Assembly: GCA_016870835.1 (NCBI GenBank)
Contig: VGAG01000005.1
Span: 1-51,164, forward strand
Length of the DNA stretch: 51,164 bases
From: Actinomycetota bacterium
Lineage (GTDB): Bacteria; Actinomycetota; Actinomycetes; Nanopelagicales; Nanopelagicaceae
Reading direction: 5' to 3'
Under the pieces are notes generated by a model that was given only the letters and a program-made list of their open reading frames with translations, was not told the DNA's origin and ran no database searches. The first letter of the stretch is position 1. The number at the start of each line of letters is the position of its first letter. The translations under genes were made by a program, and so were the position numbers. This document shows, one piece after another, positions 4,807 to 10,920 of the stretch.

Positions 4807-5952
4807 ATGGATGCGCTATTTACTCTCCCAGAAGAATACGAAGCGCTCCGAGAAAGTGTTCGCGCCCTTGCTGATAAAAAAATACAACCCTTTGCTCATG
4901 ATGTAGATGCCAGCGCGAGATTTCCGCAAGAAGCATTTGATGCCTTACAAAGTGCAGGACTTGCAGCACCACATGTTCCAACAGAATACGGCGGCGAGGG
5001 CGCTGATGCGCTTGCCGTAGTAATTGTTATTGAAGAGGTGGCAAGGGTTTGCGCTTCTTCTTCTTTGATTCCTGCGGTGAATAAATTGGGCTCGGTCCCA
5101 TTGATGTTGGCCGGAAGTGCGCAGCAGAAGAAGCGTTGGATGAGCGAGCTGGCCAAGGGAAAAGGTTTCTCTTATTGCTTATCTGAATCAGAAGCGGGTT
5201 CTGACGCCGCATCAATGAAGACTCGCGCAGTTCGAAAAGGTGATGGTTGGGTACTGAATGGAAGTAAAAAGTGGATCTCTCATGCTGGAGTATCTGAGTT
5301 TTATACGGTTCTGGCCTCAACTGATCCAGAGAAAGGTTCGAAGGGAATCACAGCATTTATTGTTGAAAAGAGCGATCCCGGACTCTCTTTCGGCGCCCAC
5401 GAAAAGAAAATGGGCTTTAAAGGTTCACCAACAAGAGAGGTTTATCTCGATAACGTAGAGATTGGTGATGACCGAAGAATTAGCGAAATCGGGGCTGGCT
5501 TCTCACTTGCGATGCAGACGCTAGATCACACTCGAATTACGATTGCAGCACAAGCGCTTGGGATTGCCCAAGGCGCTTTCGAGGTAGCAACTAAGTACGC
5601 AAAAGAGCGCCGCCAATTTGGCAAGGCAATCTTTGATTTCCAAGCAATCCAATTCATGCTCGCTGATATGGCGATGGAGATTGAGGCAGCTCGACAACTT
5701 ACATATGTAGCTGCTGCCAAGAGTGAACGAGGCGAGCGTGACCTTACTTTCTTCTCGGCCGCATCAAAATGTTTTGCTACCGATGTAGCGATGAAAGTGA
5801 CGACCGATGCAGTCCAAGTTCTTGGCGGATATGGCTATGTAAATGACTATCCAGTTGAGCGGATGATGCGAGATGCAAAACTAACTCAAATATATGAAGG
5901 CACAAATCAAATCCAGCGCCTCGTAATGGCGCGCAACCTTGGTATCAACTAA
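4807..5952 (+). CDS. Acyl-CoA dehydrogenase
   Basis: A 381-residue flavoprotein of full family length. It has the N-terminal helical domain, the middle beta domain with YCLSESEAGSDAASMKT (FAD/substrate region) and the C-terminal helical domain with ERRQFGKAIFDFQAIQFMLA and QVLGGYGYVNDYPVERMMRD. The catalytic base is predicted to be Glu364 in QIYEGTNQIQ, the position used by short- and medium-chain enzymes. It should oxidise an acyl-CoA to the 2-enoyl-CoA and pass electrons to ETF. The chain length or branched substrate cannot be read from sequence. Its stop codon overlaps the convergent cyclo-ligase gene by 4 nt. Confidence 0.93.
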   Translation: MDALFTLPEEYEALRESVRALADKKIQPFAHDVDASARFPQEAFDALQSAGLAAPHVPTEYGGEGADALAVVIVIEEVARVCASSSLIPAVNKLGSVPLMLAGSAQQKKRWMSELAKGKGFSYCLSESEAGSDAASMKTRAVRKGDGWVLNGSKKWISHAGVSEFYTVLASTDPEKGSKGITAFIVEKSDPGLSFGAHEKKMGFKGSPTREVYLDNVEIGDDRRISEIGAGFSLAMQTLDHTRITIAAQALGIAQGAFEVATKYAKERRQFGKAIFDFQAIQFMLADMAMEIEAARQLTYVAAAKSERGERDLTFFSAASKCFATDVAMKVTTDAVQVLGGYGYVNDYPVERMMRDAKLTQIYEGTNQIQRLVMARNLGIN

Positions 5953-6479
5953 AACCGAATCAAACGAGTAGGCGTAAGCGCCGCTCTTACCTTCTGATCG
6001 TGTGGCTCGGAAGGAACTAGTTCCACTAATTCATTCTCATTAATGAGAGCAATAGTGAACACATCAACCCGTCCAAGAGCTCGATCATAGGAACCGCCCC
6101 CTTGTCCGAGCCTGTTTCCAAAAGTATCGACCGCGAGCGCCGGCAGAATTATCAAATCAATTTTGCCGTGAAAGGTTGCACCAATCGGTTCTTCAATCTT
6201 TCCATTTGCTCTTAGATTCATTAATTCTCCATCCCAGTTACAAAATTCAATTCCAAAACCATCTTGGAGGCGCGGAAGAAGCAATTGCTTTCCAGAATCG
6301 AGGATCAACTTATTGAGAATCTCAGTTGCTGGTTCGTTGCCAAAGGAGCGATAGCTGCCGATTACTTTGGCGCCGATGAATTCCGGAGACTTTGTAATTA
6401 GGTTAAAGTCAAAATGTGATTTTGATTGGCCGCGTTGCTGGCGAATCAAATTCCGCAATCCTGACTTCGTGTTCTCCAC
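5949..6479 (-). CDS. 5-formyltetrahydrofolate cyclo-ligase
   Basis: A 176-residue protein starting at GTG. The C-terminal signature DTFGNRLGQGGGSYDRAL matches the nucleotide/folate-binding loop of MTHFS enzymes, and the N-terminal basic helix LRNLIRQQR fits the family. It converts 5-formyl-THF to 5,10-methenyl-THF using ATP, recycling a storage folate. It is slightly short (family about 180-200). It is divergent from the gephyrin-like gene across 33 bp and convergent with the acyl-CoA dehydrogenase. In mycobacteria galU normally separates this gene from moeA1; galU is absent here. Confidence 0.92.
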   Translation of the reverse strand: MENTKSGLRNLIRQQRGQSKSHFDFNLITKSPEFIGAKVIGSYRSFGNEPATEILNKLILDSGKQLLLPRLQDGFGIEFCNWDGELMNLRANGKIEEPIGATFHGKIDLIILPALAVDTFGNRLGQGGGSYDRALGRVDVFTIALINENELVELVPSEPHDQKVRAALTPTRLIRF

Positions 6480-6512: not shown

Positions 6513-7436
6513 GTGAGTGAGAACATCCGCGTAGCTGAATTAGCCACAGAGCTATTAGCGCTATCAAAACCGCTGGCTGAGTTTGATATGCCGCTCCTTG
6601 ATTCTCATGGCGCGACGCTCGCCTCGGATCTTTTTCGTGGCGATCAAGTTGCACTTCGAGCAGGCTCGCGAATTCGCTCAACTCAAATTGGATTAGCCGC
6701 TTCTTTAGGGCGGGATCATTTACCAACTCGCCCACAACCAAGAGTTGTAGTCGTATCGGCCGGAGATGATTTAGTTGAACCAGGTAAAGGCACGCCTGGT
6801 GAAGATGAGGAATACGAGGTTAATTCCTGGCTTTTAACTACCGCTGTAAAAGAGGCGGGAGCGGTCGGTTATCGCGTAACCACAATTCCGGAAACCCCAG
6901 ATGCCTTGAAAGATGTAATTGAAGATCAACTTGTTCGAGCTGATTTGATAGTTATCTGTGGTGAGAGTCATGATGAATCTTTTGATTTAATTTTTGGCGT
7001 ATTGAGTCGACTCGGTGAAGTAAAGAGCGTTCTGCCCAATATTGAAGGAAGTGGCCGCCACGCTTTTGGATTAATTGGCCCAGATAAGACTCCGGTCGTT
7101 GCACTTCCCGGTGATCCGATTTCAGCTTATATATCTAACGAACTCTTTATTCGCCCGATGATTCGTAACATGATGGGTCTATATGACATCCACCGGCCGA
7201 TTGCCCGCGCGACTCTTACAAATGATGTGGCAAGTGAAGCCGGAAAGCATGCATTTATCCGCGCGACTCTCTCAAGTGACAATCCAAATCGCAGGCTCGT
7301 AACAGCGCTAGAAAATCAAGGAGATTTGATTGGATTATCGGATGCAACTGGATTAATTGTTATGAATGAAGAGTGCACTGAGTTAAAGGCGGGTGAGGAA
7401 GTAGATGTTCTACTTTTGGAGCGACGCTTCAACTAA
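6513..7436 (+). CDS. Gephyrin/MoeA-like protein lacking domain II (Glp-type)
   Basis: A 307-residue protein clearly related to MoeA/gephyrin: QPRVVVVSAGDDLVEPG, PVVALPGDPISAYISNELFI and the C-terminal domain IV align with the family. MoeA is normally 400-430 residues. Here residues near 38 jump from MPLLDSHGATLASDL straight to VALRAGSRIRSTQIGLAASL, which in MoeA lie more than 100 residues apart. The whole of domain II, with its MDGYA motif, is gone. The usual SGGVSxGxxD loop reads CGESHDESFD and the MQPGKPQGFG loop reads LPNIEGSGRHAFG, so molybdopterin binding is unlikely. It is followed by rimJ and a GlpR/SepX homologue. In Corynebacterium the equivalent Glp binds FtsZ and its membrane receptor GlpR, so a cell-division scaffold role is inferred. 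No other molybdenum-cofactor gene is in the window. Confidence 0.85.
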   Translation: MSENIRVAELATELLALSKPLAEFDMPLLDSHGATLASDLFRGDQVALRAGSRIRSTQIGLAASLGRDHLPTRPQPRVVVVSAGDDLVEPGKGTPGEDEEYEVNSWLLTTAVKEAGAVGYRVTTIPETPDALKDVIEDQLVRADLIVICGESHDESFDLIFGVLSRLGEVKSVLPNIEGSGRHAFGLIGPDKTPVVALPGDPISAYISNELFIRPMIRNMMGLYDIHRPIARATLTNDVASEAGKHAFIRATLSSDNPNRRLVTALENQGDLIGLSDATGLIVMNEECTELKAGEEVDVLLLERRFN

Positions 7437-7991
7437 ATGAGTTGGCCAGTTTCTCTAGTAGAGGGCGAGCTAACGCTTCGCCCACTAAGGCTTCGGGATC
7501 GAAAAGCTTGGCTGGAGCTAAGAGCAAAAAATCGCAGCTGGTTGACTCCTTGGGAAGCAACTACCCCGATACTCGAGGAAGCGAAATCCCTACCGACTTA
7601 TTATGAGATGGTCGCTTTTCATCGACGTGAAGGTAAGGCGGGACGCTCCTTCTCCTTTGCAATCTGGTTTGCCGGCAAATTGATAGGGCAGATAACCCTC
7701 GGTGGGGTTTCATACGGTGCATATAGAGGCGCACATATTGGTTATTGGATTGATGAATCACATGCGAATAAGGGTCTTACGACACGAGCCGTTCGCGAAG
7801 TAGCGCGCTTTGGATTTGAAGAGCTTCGACTTCATCGGATTGAAATTGCGCTCCGTCCAGAAAATGCCGCGTCGAAACGAGTTGCTGAGAAAGCAGGATT
7901 TTCTTTTGAAGGTTTAAGAGCGCGCTATTTACATATTGATGGTGGATGGCGAGATCACATTGTCTTTGTAAAAGAGAACACGAGAATTTAG
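7437..7991 (+). CDS. RimJ/RimL-type GNAT N-acetyltransferase
   Basis: A 184-residue GNAT protein whose ATG directly follows the glp stop codon with no gap, so it is translated from the same mRNA. It has the N-terminal TLRPLRLRDRKAWLELR strand-helix, the YWIDESHANKGLTTRAVREV acetyl-CoA pyrophosphate loop (a variant of Q/RxxGxG/A) and RIEIALRPENAASKRVAEKA, as in RimJ/RimL. The family acetylates N-termini of ribosomal proteins, but substrates vary widely. In mycobacteria the gene also sits between moeA1 and the glpR homologue, so the association with this presumed division module is old. Whether it modifies Glp, GlpR or FtsZ is unknown. Confidence 0.88.
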   Translation: MSWPVSLVEGELTLRPLRLRDRKAWLELRAKNRSWLTPWEATTPILEEAKSLPTYYEMVAFHRREGKAGRSFSFAIWFAGKLIGQITLGGVSYGAYRGAHIGYWIDESHANKGLTTRAVREVARFGFEELRLHRIEIALRPENAASKRVAEKAGFSFEGLRARYLHIDGGWRDHIVFVKENTRI

Positions 7992-8043: not shown

Positions 8044-8811
8044 ATGGGTTCAGGTCTCATCTACATCATCATCGTAGGTATGTGGATCGCCTATTTCCTC
8101 CCGCGCTGGATAGCAAATCATGATGAAGTATCAGGACGCTCGGTAGATAAATTCAATGAGGCGATGCGTGTAGTTGGTAGGGCCTCAGGTAAAACAAAAG
8201 TTGATCTTGATGAACTTTTGCGCAGGAAAGAAAATCAGATGTTGGTTCGCCGAATAGTCTTCTTCTCTATTCTCGGGTTAATGACAATTATCGCGCTCTT
8301 TATTCTTGTTGGATTCTTATCGCCCACAATTATTTTGTTACCGATCTCTGGAATCGGTCTTTATCTGGTAAATACTCGCCACCAGATAAATTCAATAAAT
8401 GAAGAGATTGAATATGCAAAGCAAAATCCAGAATCAAAGCGAGAAGATAGTAAGTACTCTGACTTGATAATTCGCTCAAAGCGAGTTGCACGTGAGAAGA
8501 GTGAAAGAGAGGAAGAACATTGGGTCCCACTCTCTGAGCGCGTTACAAAGTCAGAGAATGAAGTTCATGGAATCACAATAATTCCAAAGGGAAGTCGAGG
8601 GGTATCAAGTACTTGGGATCCAATCAGCGTTCCGCCTCCAACTTATACTCAAACATCAAAAGCTGCCCCACAGCGATCCAATCAAGGTGAAGAATTTAGT
8701 CATGAAGATTTAGAACGCTTAAGTCGACCAGACTCAGATCAAATCTTTGATCAACAAGCTGCTGATATCGTTGAAGAACAGATAAGAACTGATCGCGCCG
8801 CAAACGAATAG
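8044..8811 (+). CDS. GlpR/SepX-like cell-division membrane protein
   Basis: A 255-residue protein. The N-terminus (SGLIYIIIVGMWIAYFLPRW) is the characteristic first membrane segment of the actinobacterial GlpR/SepX family. It is followed by a cytoplasmic stretch with ELLRRKENQMLVRRIVFF, two close membrane helices (about residues 69-110), and a long charged, Pro/Ser-rich C-terminal tail that looks disordered. In Streptomyces SepX is needed for septum formation. In Corynebacterium GlpR is the membrane receptor for the gephyrin-like Glp. Here it lies two genes downstream of the shortened glp, so the pair probably acts together at the division site. Assignment rests on the N-terminal motif, topology and neighbourhood; the tail is not conserved enough to judge. 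Confidence 0.8.
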   Translation: MGSGLIYIIIVGMWIAYFLPRWIANHDEVSGRSVDKFNEAMRVVGRASGKTKVDLDELLRRKENQMLVRRIVFFSILGLMTIIALFILVGFLSPTIILLPISGIGLYLVNTRHQINSINEEIEYAKQNPESKREDSKYSDLIIRSKRVAREKSEREEEHWVPLSERVTKSENEVHGITIIPKGSRGVSSTWDPISVPPPTYTQTSKAAPQRSNQGEEFSHEDLERLSRPDSDQIFDQQAADIVEEQIRTDRAANE

Positions 8812-8824
8812 TAATTAGAAAGCG

Positions 8825-10054
8825 CTAGATCCAACTCGGTAACCACATCCGAGCAAACCAATCTTCGTAAGTTAGAACAATCCCAAGGTAGACCGGGGCA
8901 AAGTAAGCAAAAGTCAGTGCTGTTAGCCCCAATGCGACATTCACACTCTGGGTCCGTTTTACGCGTTTATTCTCATCTTCCAGATAGAGCTTTAACGAAT
9001 AAATAATGGCCAGGATGAGGAATGGGAAGAAGGAAATTGCGTAGAAATAAAAGGTTGTCCGATCTGGGAATAGTAGCCAGGGGAGATAGTTAGAAAGCAA
9101 GCCCATAAGAATCAAGCCAGCAACTTTCTCTCTTCTGGATAGGAAGTATCCAATTGTGATAGCAAGTGCAACTAAACCAAACCACCAGATAACGGGCGTT
9201 CCCATTGCAAGGATTTCTTGAGAGCAATTCTCAGCGCCACAAGCTTTAGGCGATTCATAGAAAAATGATGTAGGCCGTCCAAGTATCAACCAATTCCATG
9301 GACTTGCCTCATACGAGTGATCTGTTTTAAGTCCTGTGTGGAAATTTAAAATTTCTCGGTGATAGTGAATGAAGGAGAGAATTGGATTAGAAGAGTGATT
9401 ACGTGACCAGCCTTGATCTGAGGCAAACCAACCGGACCAAGAAATTAAATAAATAATTGGGATGGTGGGTAAGTAGTAAGAAAGTTTCCGCCAATTTGTT
9501 ATCGCAAGATAAATTCCGATTGCGATGATGAAATAGACCGCGCTCCACTTTGTGGCGAGCGCGAGCGCTAAGAAGATTGCTGTTGCAAGATGTTTTTCAT
9601 AAAGCAGTGCTAGAAATGCCGCAATGAGAAAGAACATAAGAAAAATATCAAGAAGTGCGGTACGCGACATAACGAGATGCAATCCATCAATCGTCATAAG
9701 TCCGGCTGCTACTAGGGCAAGATAATCCGAATTAAAAAGTCGCTTAGCAACGAGATAGATAAGTACAATCGAGAGCGTTCCAATTACGGCCGAGGCGATG
9801 CGCCAACCGGTAGAGGTATCACCAAAGAGAGCGATACCAAGTGCTATTAACCACTTACCAAGTGGCGGGTGTACGACAAATTCAGCTACACCATTAGTTA
9901 CCTCAACGCCTCCGGCCAAATAATCACGGGCGCCATCGACGTAATAGACCTCATCAAAGACCAGCGAGTCAGGAGTTCCCAAATTCCAAAACCGGAGCAT
10001 TGCCGCCAAGGAGAGGATCAATCCGAGTATCCAGCGAGGAGATATTCGGTGCAT
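8825..10054 (-). CDS. pmt: Protein O-mannosyltransferase (PMT/GT39)
   Basis: A 409-residue polytopic membrane protein. RFWNLGTPDSLVFDEVYYVD carries the catalytic Asp-Glu pair of the first extracytoplasmic loop of PMTs, and VVHPPLGKWLIALG follows as expected. About ten or eleven hydrophobic helices continue to the end. It should transfer mannose from polyprenyl-phosphate-mannose to exported proteins. The frame stays open upstream to 10138, but I place the start at ATG 10054 (MHRISPRW), because the longer version would overlap rsmI and a -10 element lies 7 nt before this ATG. At 409 residues it is shorter than mycobacterial Pmt (about 500). The pmt-rsmI divergent pair is conserved in Actinobacteria. 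Confidence 0.88.
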   Translation of the reverse strand: MHRISPRWILGLILSLAAMLRFWNLGTPDSLVFDEVYYVDGARDYLAGGVEVTNGVAEFVVHPPLGKWLIALGIALFGDTSTGWRIASAVIGTLSIVLIYLVAKRLFNSDYLALVAAGLMTIDGLHLVMSRTALLDIFLMFFLIAAFLALLYEKHLATAIFLALALATKWSAVYFIIAIGIYLAITNWRKLSYYLPTIPIIYLISWSGWFASDQGWSRNHSSNPILSFIHYHREILNFHTGLKTDHSYEASPWNWLILGRPTSFFYESPKACGAENCSQEILAMGTPVIWWFGLVALAITIGYFLSRREKVAGLILMGLLSNYLPWLLFPDRTTFYFYAISFFPFLILAIIYSLKLYLEDENKRVKRTQSVNVALGLTALTFAYFAPVYLGIVLTYEDWFARMWLPSWI

Positions 10055-10061
10055 GAAGGTA

Positions 10062-10080
10062 AGGATACTGATGCGAGAAT
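10062..10080. promoter_or_regulatory. Divergent -10 elements for pmt and rsmI
   Basis: On the minus strand TATCCT (10067 down to 10062) lies 7 nt before the pmt ATG. On the plus strand GAGAAT (10075-10080, four of six matches to TATAAT) lies 6 nt before the rsmI ATG. The gap between the two genes is 32 bp, leaving no room for separate leaders. Confidence 0.4.
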
Positions 10081-10086
10081 TACCAA

Positions 10087-10920
10087 ATGGGGACCTTGGT
10101 AGTTGCTGCTGCACCAATTGGAAATAGCGGTGATGCAACCGGCCGACTCAAGGAAGTAATTTCCAAATCGACCTTTGTGGCGGCAGAAGACTCGCGCAAG
10201 TTCGCCCGGCTCTGTAAGGATCTTGGAATCGAACATCGCGCAAAAGTCATCTCGTTCTTTGAAGGAAATGAGCGTGAACGGTTAGATGAATTAGAGCGAG
10301 CGCTAACTGAACATGACGAGGTGCTTCTGATTACGGATTCTGGAATGCCGGGAGTAAGCGACCCTGGTTATCGAGCAATAATTCTTGCTTTAGAAAAGAA
10401 CTTTCCGATTCAAGTACTTCCAGGTGCAAGCGCTGTGACAACTGCACTTGTGCTCTCCGGGCTACCAAGTGATCGCTTCGCCTTTGAAGGATTTGCGCCT
10501 CGTACTGATGTTGCACGGGATAAATTCTTAGAGGAACTAGCCGAGGAAGAGCGGACCATGATTTTCTTTGAAGCCCCACATCGCATCGCAGCTTTTTTAC
10601 AGTCGGCAACAAAGTCATTTGGTGAAAATCGTCGCGCTGCTGTTTGCCGCGAGATGACCAAGACCTATGAAGAAGTACAGCGTGGAACGCTCGCGGGACT
10701 TTTTGATTGGGCTAATTCAAAGGAGATGCTGGGTGAGTTCACGATTGTGATCTCTGGATTTTCAAAGCGGGATGTAACTCACAGTGAAGATGAGATTGCT
10801 GGTTTAGTGAAGCGGTTAGAGAGCGCGGGAATTTCAAGAAAAGAGGCGATTTCTACTGTTGCAAAAGAATTAGGAGTGCCTAAACGTTCGGTCTTCGACA
10901 TCATGGTTTCACACAAGTAG
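10087..10920 (+). CDS. rsmI: 16S rRNA (cytidine1402-2'-O)-methyltransferase
   Basis: A 277-residue protein of normal family length. It begins with the RsmI signature VAAAPIGNSGDATGRLKE and contains AAEDSRKFARLCKDLGI, LLITDSGMPGVSDPGYR (SAM-binding region of the tetrapyrrole-methylase fold) and PGASAVTTALVLSGLPSDRF. It methylates the 2'-OH of C1402 in 16S rRNA, fine-tuning the P site. It heads a run of translation and envelope genes on the plus strand and is divergent from pmt, the usual actinobacterial arrangement. rsmA, which acts on the same rRNA, lies three genes downstream. Confidence 0.95.
   Translation: MGTLVVAAAPIGNSGDATGRLKEVISKSTFVAAEDSRKFARLCKDLGIEHRAKVISFFEGNERERLDELERALTEHDEVLLITDSGMPGVSDPGYRAIILALEKNFPIQVLPGASAVTTALVLSGLPSDRFAFEGFAPRTDVARDKFLEELAEEERTMIFFEAPHRIAAFLQSATKSFGENRRAAVCREMTKTYEEVQRGTLAGLFDWANSKEMLGEFTIVISGFSKRDVTHSEDEIAGLVKRLESAGISRKEAISTVAKELGVPKRSVFDIMVSHK

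Follow-up and report, generated by a model that had tools for sequence, protein, structure and literature searches.

The gene investigated in this study is located in a stretch of DNA of 51,164 nucleotides, in the following referred to as the window. It originates from a member of the Ca. Nanopelagicaceae, small-genome freshwater actinobacteria that are very abundant in lakes. The gene, termed short glp, and its surroundings contain the following features:

5949-6479, minus strand: 5-formyltetrahydrofolate cyclo-ligase, a neighbour that is conserved on the upstream side of glp (Pfam, locus comparison)
6513-7436, plus strand: short glp, encoding a Glp/MoeA homologue of 307 residues without domain II, GTG start (ORF, profile and structure evidence)
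6570-6638, plus strand: domain I ahead of the junction, residues 20-42 (aligned with E. coli MoeA and with the full-length Glp of genera g17 and g19; limits from PMC10522489)
6638-6639, plus strand: excision junction between residues 42 and 43, from which domain II, about 100 codons long, is absent (alignment gap)
6639-6731, plus strand: domain I after the junction, residues 43-73 (alignments)
6732-7184, plus strand: MogA-like domain III, residues 74-224, with the altered loops GESHDESFD, IEGSGRHAFG and LPGDP (Pfam, alignments)
7185-7433, plus strand: domain IV, residues 225-307, including the region that corresponds to the hairpin with which C. glutamicum Glp binds FtsZ and GlpR (Pfam, alignments)
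7437-7991, plus strand: RimJ-like GNAT acetyltransferase, conserved between glp and glpR (Pfam, locus comparison)
8044-8811, plus strand: homologue of the membrane receptor glpR/sepX (NCBIfam SepX/GlpR_2, E 3.6e-24, below the curated cut-off)

The order is thus cyclo-ligase on the minus strand, short glp, GNAT and glpR, followed by a minus-strand gene at 8825-10138. The reading frame of short glp contains no internal stop, and its product matches the Pfam families MoCF_biosynth (residues 80-218) and MoeA_C (residues 232-302), with only the final 25 of the 160 positions of MoeA_N being recovered at residues 42-66, below the cut-off. Upon alignment with E. coli MoeA, the biggest gap comprises residues ~47-144 of the E. 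coli protein and falls between residues 42 and 43 of short Glp, a position that is identical in all 27 aligned short forms. In C. glutamicum Glp, domain II extends from residue 46 to 145 (PMC10522489). Since the gap covers this domain, the MDGYA motif and the positions equivalent to D59, T100, R137 and D142 of E. coli MoeA are missing from the protein, the latter four being deleted in 27/27 short proteins. The excision is clean in that both halves of domain I are present, and in the absence of domain II the protein does not have the four-domain architecture (I-IV) of Glp. A preliminary description of this DNA had already pointed out the deleted domain, the clean frame, the conversion of the GGVSxG loop to CGESHDESFD and of the QPGKPQGFG loop to IEGSGRHAFG, and the conserved location of the gene, all of which hold in our alignments and in the synteny with glpR across short-Glp loci.

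The remaining domains I, III and IV are predicted by AlphaFold2 to fold confidently (pLDDT 92.0, pTM 0.90), and this fold is shared with E. coli MoeA, Cnx1E and the gephyrin E domain (Z about 29-33). The model matches Cnx1E at 2.2 Å over 298 residues and, as a single chain that cannot settle between open and closed states, it appears nearer to the closed form of MoeA (E. coli, 2.3 Å over 295 residues) than to the open form of C. glutamicum Glp (3.3 Å over 295 residues, 32% identity), whose hinge makes the FtsZ site. On the level of sequence, the closest entry in the PDB is C. glutamicum Glp (E 7e-41), followed by a Pyrococcus MoeA (5e-20), and for every short protein tested the NCBIfam model of Glp scored above the MoeA_actino model, with values of 248 and 169 bits for the window protein. 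The former value is below the curated cut-off of 475 bits for NF045515, as the protein leaves roughly a third of the model uncovered, whereas the full-length proteins of g17 and g19 exceed it with 509 and 543 bits. In a phylogenetic tree, the window protein groups with full-length proteins encoded at Glp loci (support 100), and both the MoeA2 paralogues (support 100) and the 14 included separate MoeA proteins, which form their own clade, are found apart. Together with the synteny with glpR, these relationships support the proposal of the preliminary description that the protein is a minimal form of Glp. With its C. glutamicum counterpart (Cgl0883; PDB 8bve/8bvf; PMC10522489) it shares domains I, III and IV and a conserved locus with glpR nearby, and the proline-rich linker preceding domain III (LPTRPQPR) resembles the corresponding VYPRPR in a comparison that concerns this second linker alone. 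It differs in the missing domain II, in an FtsZ loop that is shorter by one residue and does not contain the equivalents of M361 and Y369, and in that no other MoeA was found in the genome of the window.

The short form is not a peculiarity of a single assembly. A match to glp was found in 280 of 296 genomes of the order, covering 17/17 genera, and with every genus sampled, short forms of ~300 residues are present in 15 of these, single-contig genomes among them, with open frames of 404-409 residues being confined to g17 and g19. Among the matches listed for 394 genomes sampled across the class, which do not comprise the genome G406 described below, one-piece short matches occur only in the family of the window. 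The short proteins constitute one clade (support 100/100) that joins the full-length Glp of g17 and g19 (95/99) through a long internal branch (~0.9 changes per column), as expected from one deletion and a subsequent release from catalytic constraint. Within the genus, dN/dS values of 0.025-0.07, at a dS near saturation, demonstrate that short glp is under purifying selection. The genome of the window, distributed over 49 contigs at 76% completeness, could by itself raise the suspicion of an assembly artefact or a pseudogene, a reading to which we attribute a vanishingly small probability. The deletion common to 15 genera excludes chance or misassembly, the open frame, the selective constraint and the confident fold all speak against it, and the relatives with the same junction led us to discard it. 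In one record titled Clavibacter sp. BS5 (L018 / L152), an organism name at odds with its placement, short glp is broken into two frames of 218 and 125 residues, which probably reflects a sequencing frameshift.

The loss of molybdenum chemistry proposed in the preliminary description is well supported by the deletion of half of the active site and by the gene content of the window's own genome and its relatives. In a profile search of the genome of the window (76% complete), we detected no MoeA_N (PF03453), and the single match to MoCF (PF00994) was short glp itself; equally, no MoaC, no MogA, no other MoeA and no separate open reading frame containing domain II were found in this genome. We analysed co-occurrence in a set of 113 genomes, consisting of that of the window and further ones that are at least 90% complete, where 42 contain both MoeA_N and MoaC, 70 contain neither and one (G276) contains MoaC only. 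Of these 42, 39 have MoeA_N in a separate MoeA and the remaining three, which belong to g17, have it in full-length Glp, and the molybdoenzymes of the xanthine-dehydrogenase type found in 14 genomes are all (14/14) within the same set of 42. The molybdenum cofactor (Moco) pathway in relatives thus tracks a separate full-length MoeA, and the short Glp of the window does not co-occur with it. A complete pathway in the absence of another moeA was not found in any short-Glp genome. G276, which is 95% complete, also has no detected Glp, and its solitary MoaC is probably a consequence of missing sequence. In light of these data, we regard it as highly improbable that short Glp still makes Moco, with domain II being replaced or supplied in trans. 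The equivalents of D259, P298, P301 and R350 of E. coli MoeA are retained in the window protein, which favours this reading, but D59, T100, R137 and D142 were lost together with domain II, its own genome contains neither MoaC nor any MoeA_N domain, and genomes with MoaC, with one exception, also contain a full-length MoeA. Short Glp therefore differs from molybdenum insertases in the absence of domain II and of most catalytic residues, and its genome in the absence of a detected Moco pathway.

What has been lost is illustrated by the locus in g17, which harbours the cyclo-ligase on the minus strand, galU, full-length glp, moaC, a mogA-like gene, GNAT, glpR and a minus-strand gene resembling the neighbour of the window at 8825-10138. 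No MoeA_N protein other than full-length Glp is present there; it is encoded adjacent to moaC (L173:2403-4555) and constitutes the only MoeA in genomes with molybdoenzymes. The proteins of g17 and g19, which are the nearest full-length relatives in the tree and are encoded in the same upstream neighbourhood, differ from short Glp by their length of 404-405 residues, their intact catalytic motifs and the presence of galU upstream, and in g17 moaC and mogA are next to the gene, whereas GNAT and glpR are found downstream as in the window. The comparison implies that galU, moaC, mogA and the molybdenum-specific part of glp have disappeared from the window locus and that the genes of the Glp/GlpR pair remain. 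In every short-Glp locus whose sequence reaches that far, glpR is located two genes downstream of glp.

Changes are also found in the part of the active site that was spared by the deletion. Among the positions defined in E. coli MoeA, D228, which binds Mg (PMC9458074), is replaced by Glu in the window protein, K279 by Glu and N300 by Asp, and S371 falls into a gap. Across the 27 short proteins, the position of D228 is occupied by Glu in 17, by Asp in six and by others in the rest, that of S371 lies opposite a gap in 26, P298 is invariant, P301 is present in 25, N300 is replaced by Asp or Glu in all, and the position of G256 is acidic in 24. In most short Glps, an acidic motif GExxDxSFxLI, located in the window at 6957-6989 (residues 149-159), occurs in place of the cofactor loop GGVSxGxYD and is itself conserved, a pattern that may leave room for a new partner or ligand.

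The retained parts of the protein can be related to the role of C. glutamicum Glp in cell division. C. glutamicum Glp is a dimer and holds the FtsZ tail with a hairpin of domain IV, in the middle of the dimer and remote from the molybdenum site, and the deletion of a loop there also abolishes binding of GlpR (PMC10522489). The distance between both sites implies that the loss of domain II should spare the divisome surface. On the side of FtsZ, the tail in the family retains the sequence [IL]D[VI]PDF, whose residues contact Glp in the published complex (PMC10522489). On the side of Glp, M361 and Y369 of the FtsZ loop of the C. glutamicum protein are replaced by S254 and R261 in the window and vary within the short clade. 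As M361 is also absent from other aligned Glps of Actinomycetes, it may be specific to Corynebacteriales. These replacements count against a divisome role of short Glp, together with the proximity of the model to closed MoeA and the score of GlpR below its cut-off, so that we infer the binding of FtsZ by short Glp, and similarly its dimerization, the interaction with GlpR and a structural role in the divisome, from the remaining features of the system. The FtsZ tail ends with DFMK or DFMR in most genera with short Glp and with DFLK in g17, g19, g18 and g26, and the stretch ahead of it is also longer (L108 and other FtsZ loci). Since g18 and g26 combine a short Glp with DFLK, we have dismissed the idea that this change coincided with the loss of the domain.

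Two other assignments of function deserve consideration. In one, short Glp would act as an adaptor for GlpR only and would have abandoned FtsZ, as might be suspected from the lost contacts of M361 and Y369 next to a glpR gene that persists two genes downstream. We find this unlikely in view of the conserved FtsZ tail and of the fact that in C. glutamicum GlpR requires the same loop as FtsZ (PMC10522489). In the other, to which we would assign a slightly better yet still doubtful prospect, the old cofactor pocket of domain III would bind a new ligand or partner, with GExxDxSFxLI as its site, so that the protein would reach beyond scaffolding. It is consistent with the conservation of the motif across most of the short clade (in E. 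coli numbering, Asp at 255 in 23/27, Ser at 257 in 25/27, Phe at 258 in 24/27) and with the uniform acidic replacement of N300, whereas a site that had simply decayed should show scattered replacements. However, the motif is absent in g18, g26, g25 and g21, there is no known ligand, and its conservation could equally serve the folding of the loop.

A second Glp without domain II was identified outside the family in G406 (family f34, 1.5 Mb), whose protein of 307 residues (L188:9571-10494) is encoded between galU and GNAT with a GlpR-like protein downstream, in a genome where MoeA_N and MoaC are both absent. In contrast to the Nanopelagicaceae, galU is kept upstream and the junction is shifted by about four residues. 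The protein is placed outside the Nanopelagicaceae clade (95/99), but a topology uniting all short Glps with that of G406 was not rejected by an AU test (p 0.13). An independent second loss in f34 is thus suggested by its position in the tree, by galU having been kept and by the displacement of the junction, though short of proof. Conversely, full-length Glp may be an enzyme elsewhere. Of 24 further actinobacterial genomes tested, 13 (G023, G024, G025, G026, G312, G314, G317, G320, G330, G337, G340, G352, G362) have no MoeA_N protein besides the one encoded at the Glp locus, with moaC directly adjacent. This implies that full-length Glp is a working molybdenum insertase there, and the catalytic residues are kept in most of nine aligned Glp-locus proteins. 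In genomes of f5, f11 and f12, which yielded no match to MoaC, Glp has retained domain II, with altered active-site loops in f5 and f12. One small genome of f5 without MoaC (L028) encodes a Glp that contains domain II and has lost the catalytic loops (IDGAGARTRAVV, EPISVVGHG, VPCEP).

We consider it likely that the gene in the window, which encodes a Glp orthologue devoid of domain II, was left as a minimal scaffold of the actinobacterial divisome after its molybdenum half had been dropped. The ancestral full-length Glp probably had two jobs, the insertion of molybdate into molybdopterin, as implied by its operon with moaC and mogA, and the binding of FtsZ and the membrane protein GlpR. Once Moco synthesis was lost on the stem of the Nanopelagicaceae, selection for the enzyme would have lapsed, the locus would have shed galU, moaC, mogA and domain II, and what was left of the active-site loops would have changed, an order of events that we propose from the comparison of extant loci. 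Domains I, III and IV should still give a MoeA-type dimer, and short Glp would serve as a small cytoplasmic adaptor joining the C-terminal tail of FtsZ to GlpR at the membrane. On a broader scale, we tentatively propose, at somewhat less than even chances, that Glp has two jobs in many Actinomycetes and that small-genome lineages losing Moco, such as Nanopelagicaceae and f34, have shed the enzyme domain independently, leaving a minimal scaffold whose old pocket may have acquired a new binding role.

As far as the literature was searched, short Glp is a previously undescribed variant of a known protein. With subscription journals outside the scope of this search, we found no published MoeA or Glp without domain II and no work linking Nanopelagicales with SepX or Planktophila with molybdopterin. 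Previous work has left open whether enzymatic function is needed or retained in Glp (PMC10522489), and its loss was predicted from sequence alone (PMC11733289). In this respect, an abundant freshwater family provides a natural deletion experiment, where Glp persists beside GlpR with half of its active site gone and where most genomes lack a Moco pathway. The retention of short glp beside the receptor gene suggests that the role in division does not need the enzyme, and it points to domains I, III and IV as the smallest unit of Glp and as a compact construct for structural work. In turn, actinobacteria with a single full-length Glp as their only MoeA beside moaC offer a testable case of true moonlighting. 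In the published view, Glp is a repurposed paralogue and Glp-bearing bacteria have at least two copies of MoeA; if the two-job proposal is true, this view of a protein always found alongside a second MoeA would need revising.
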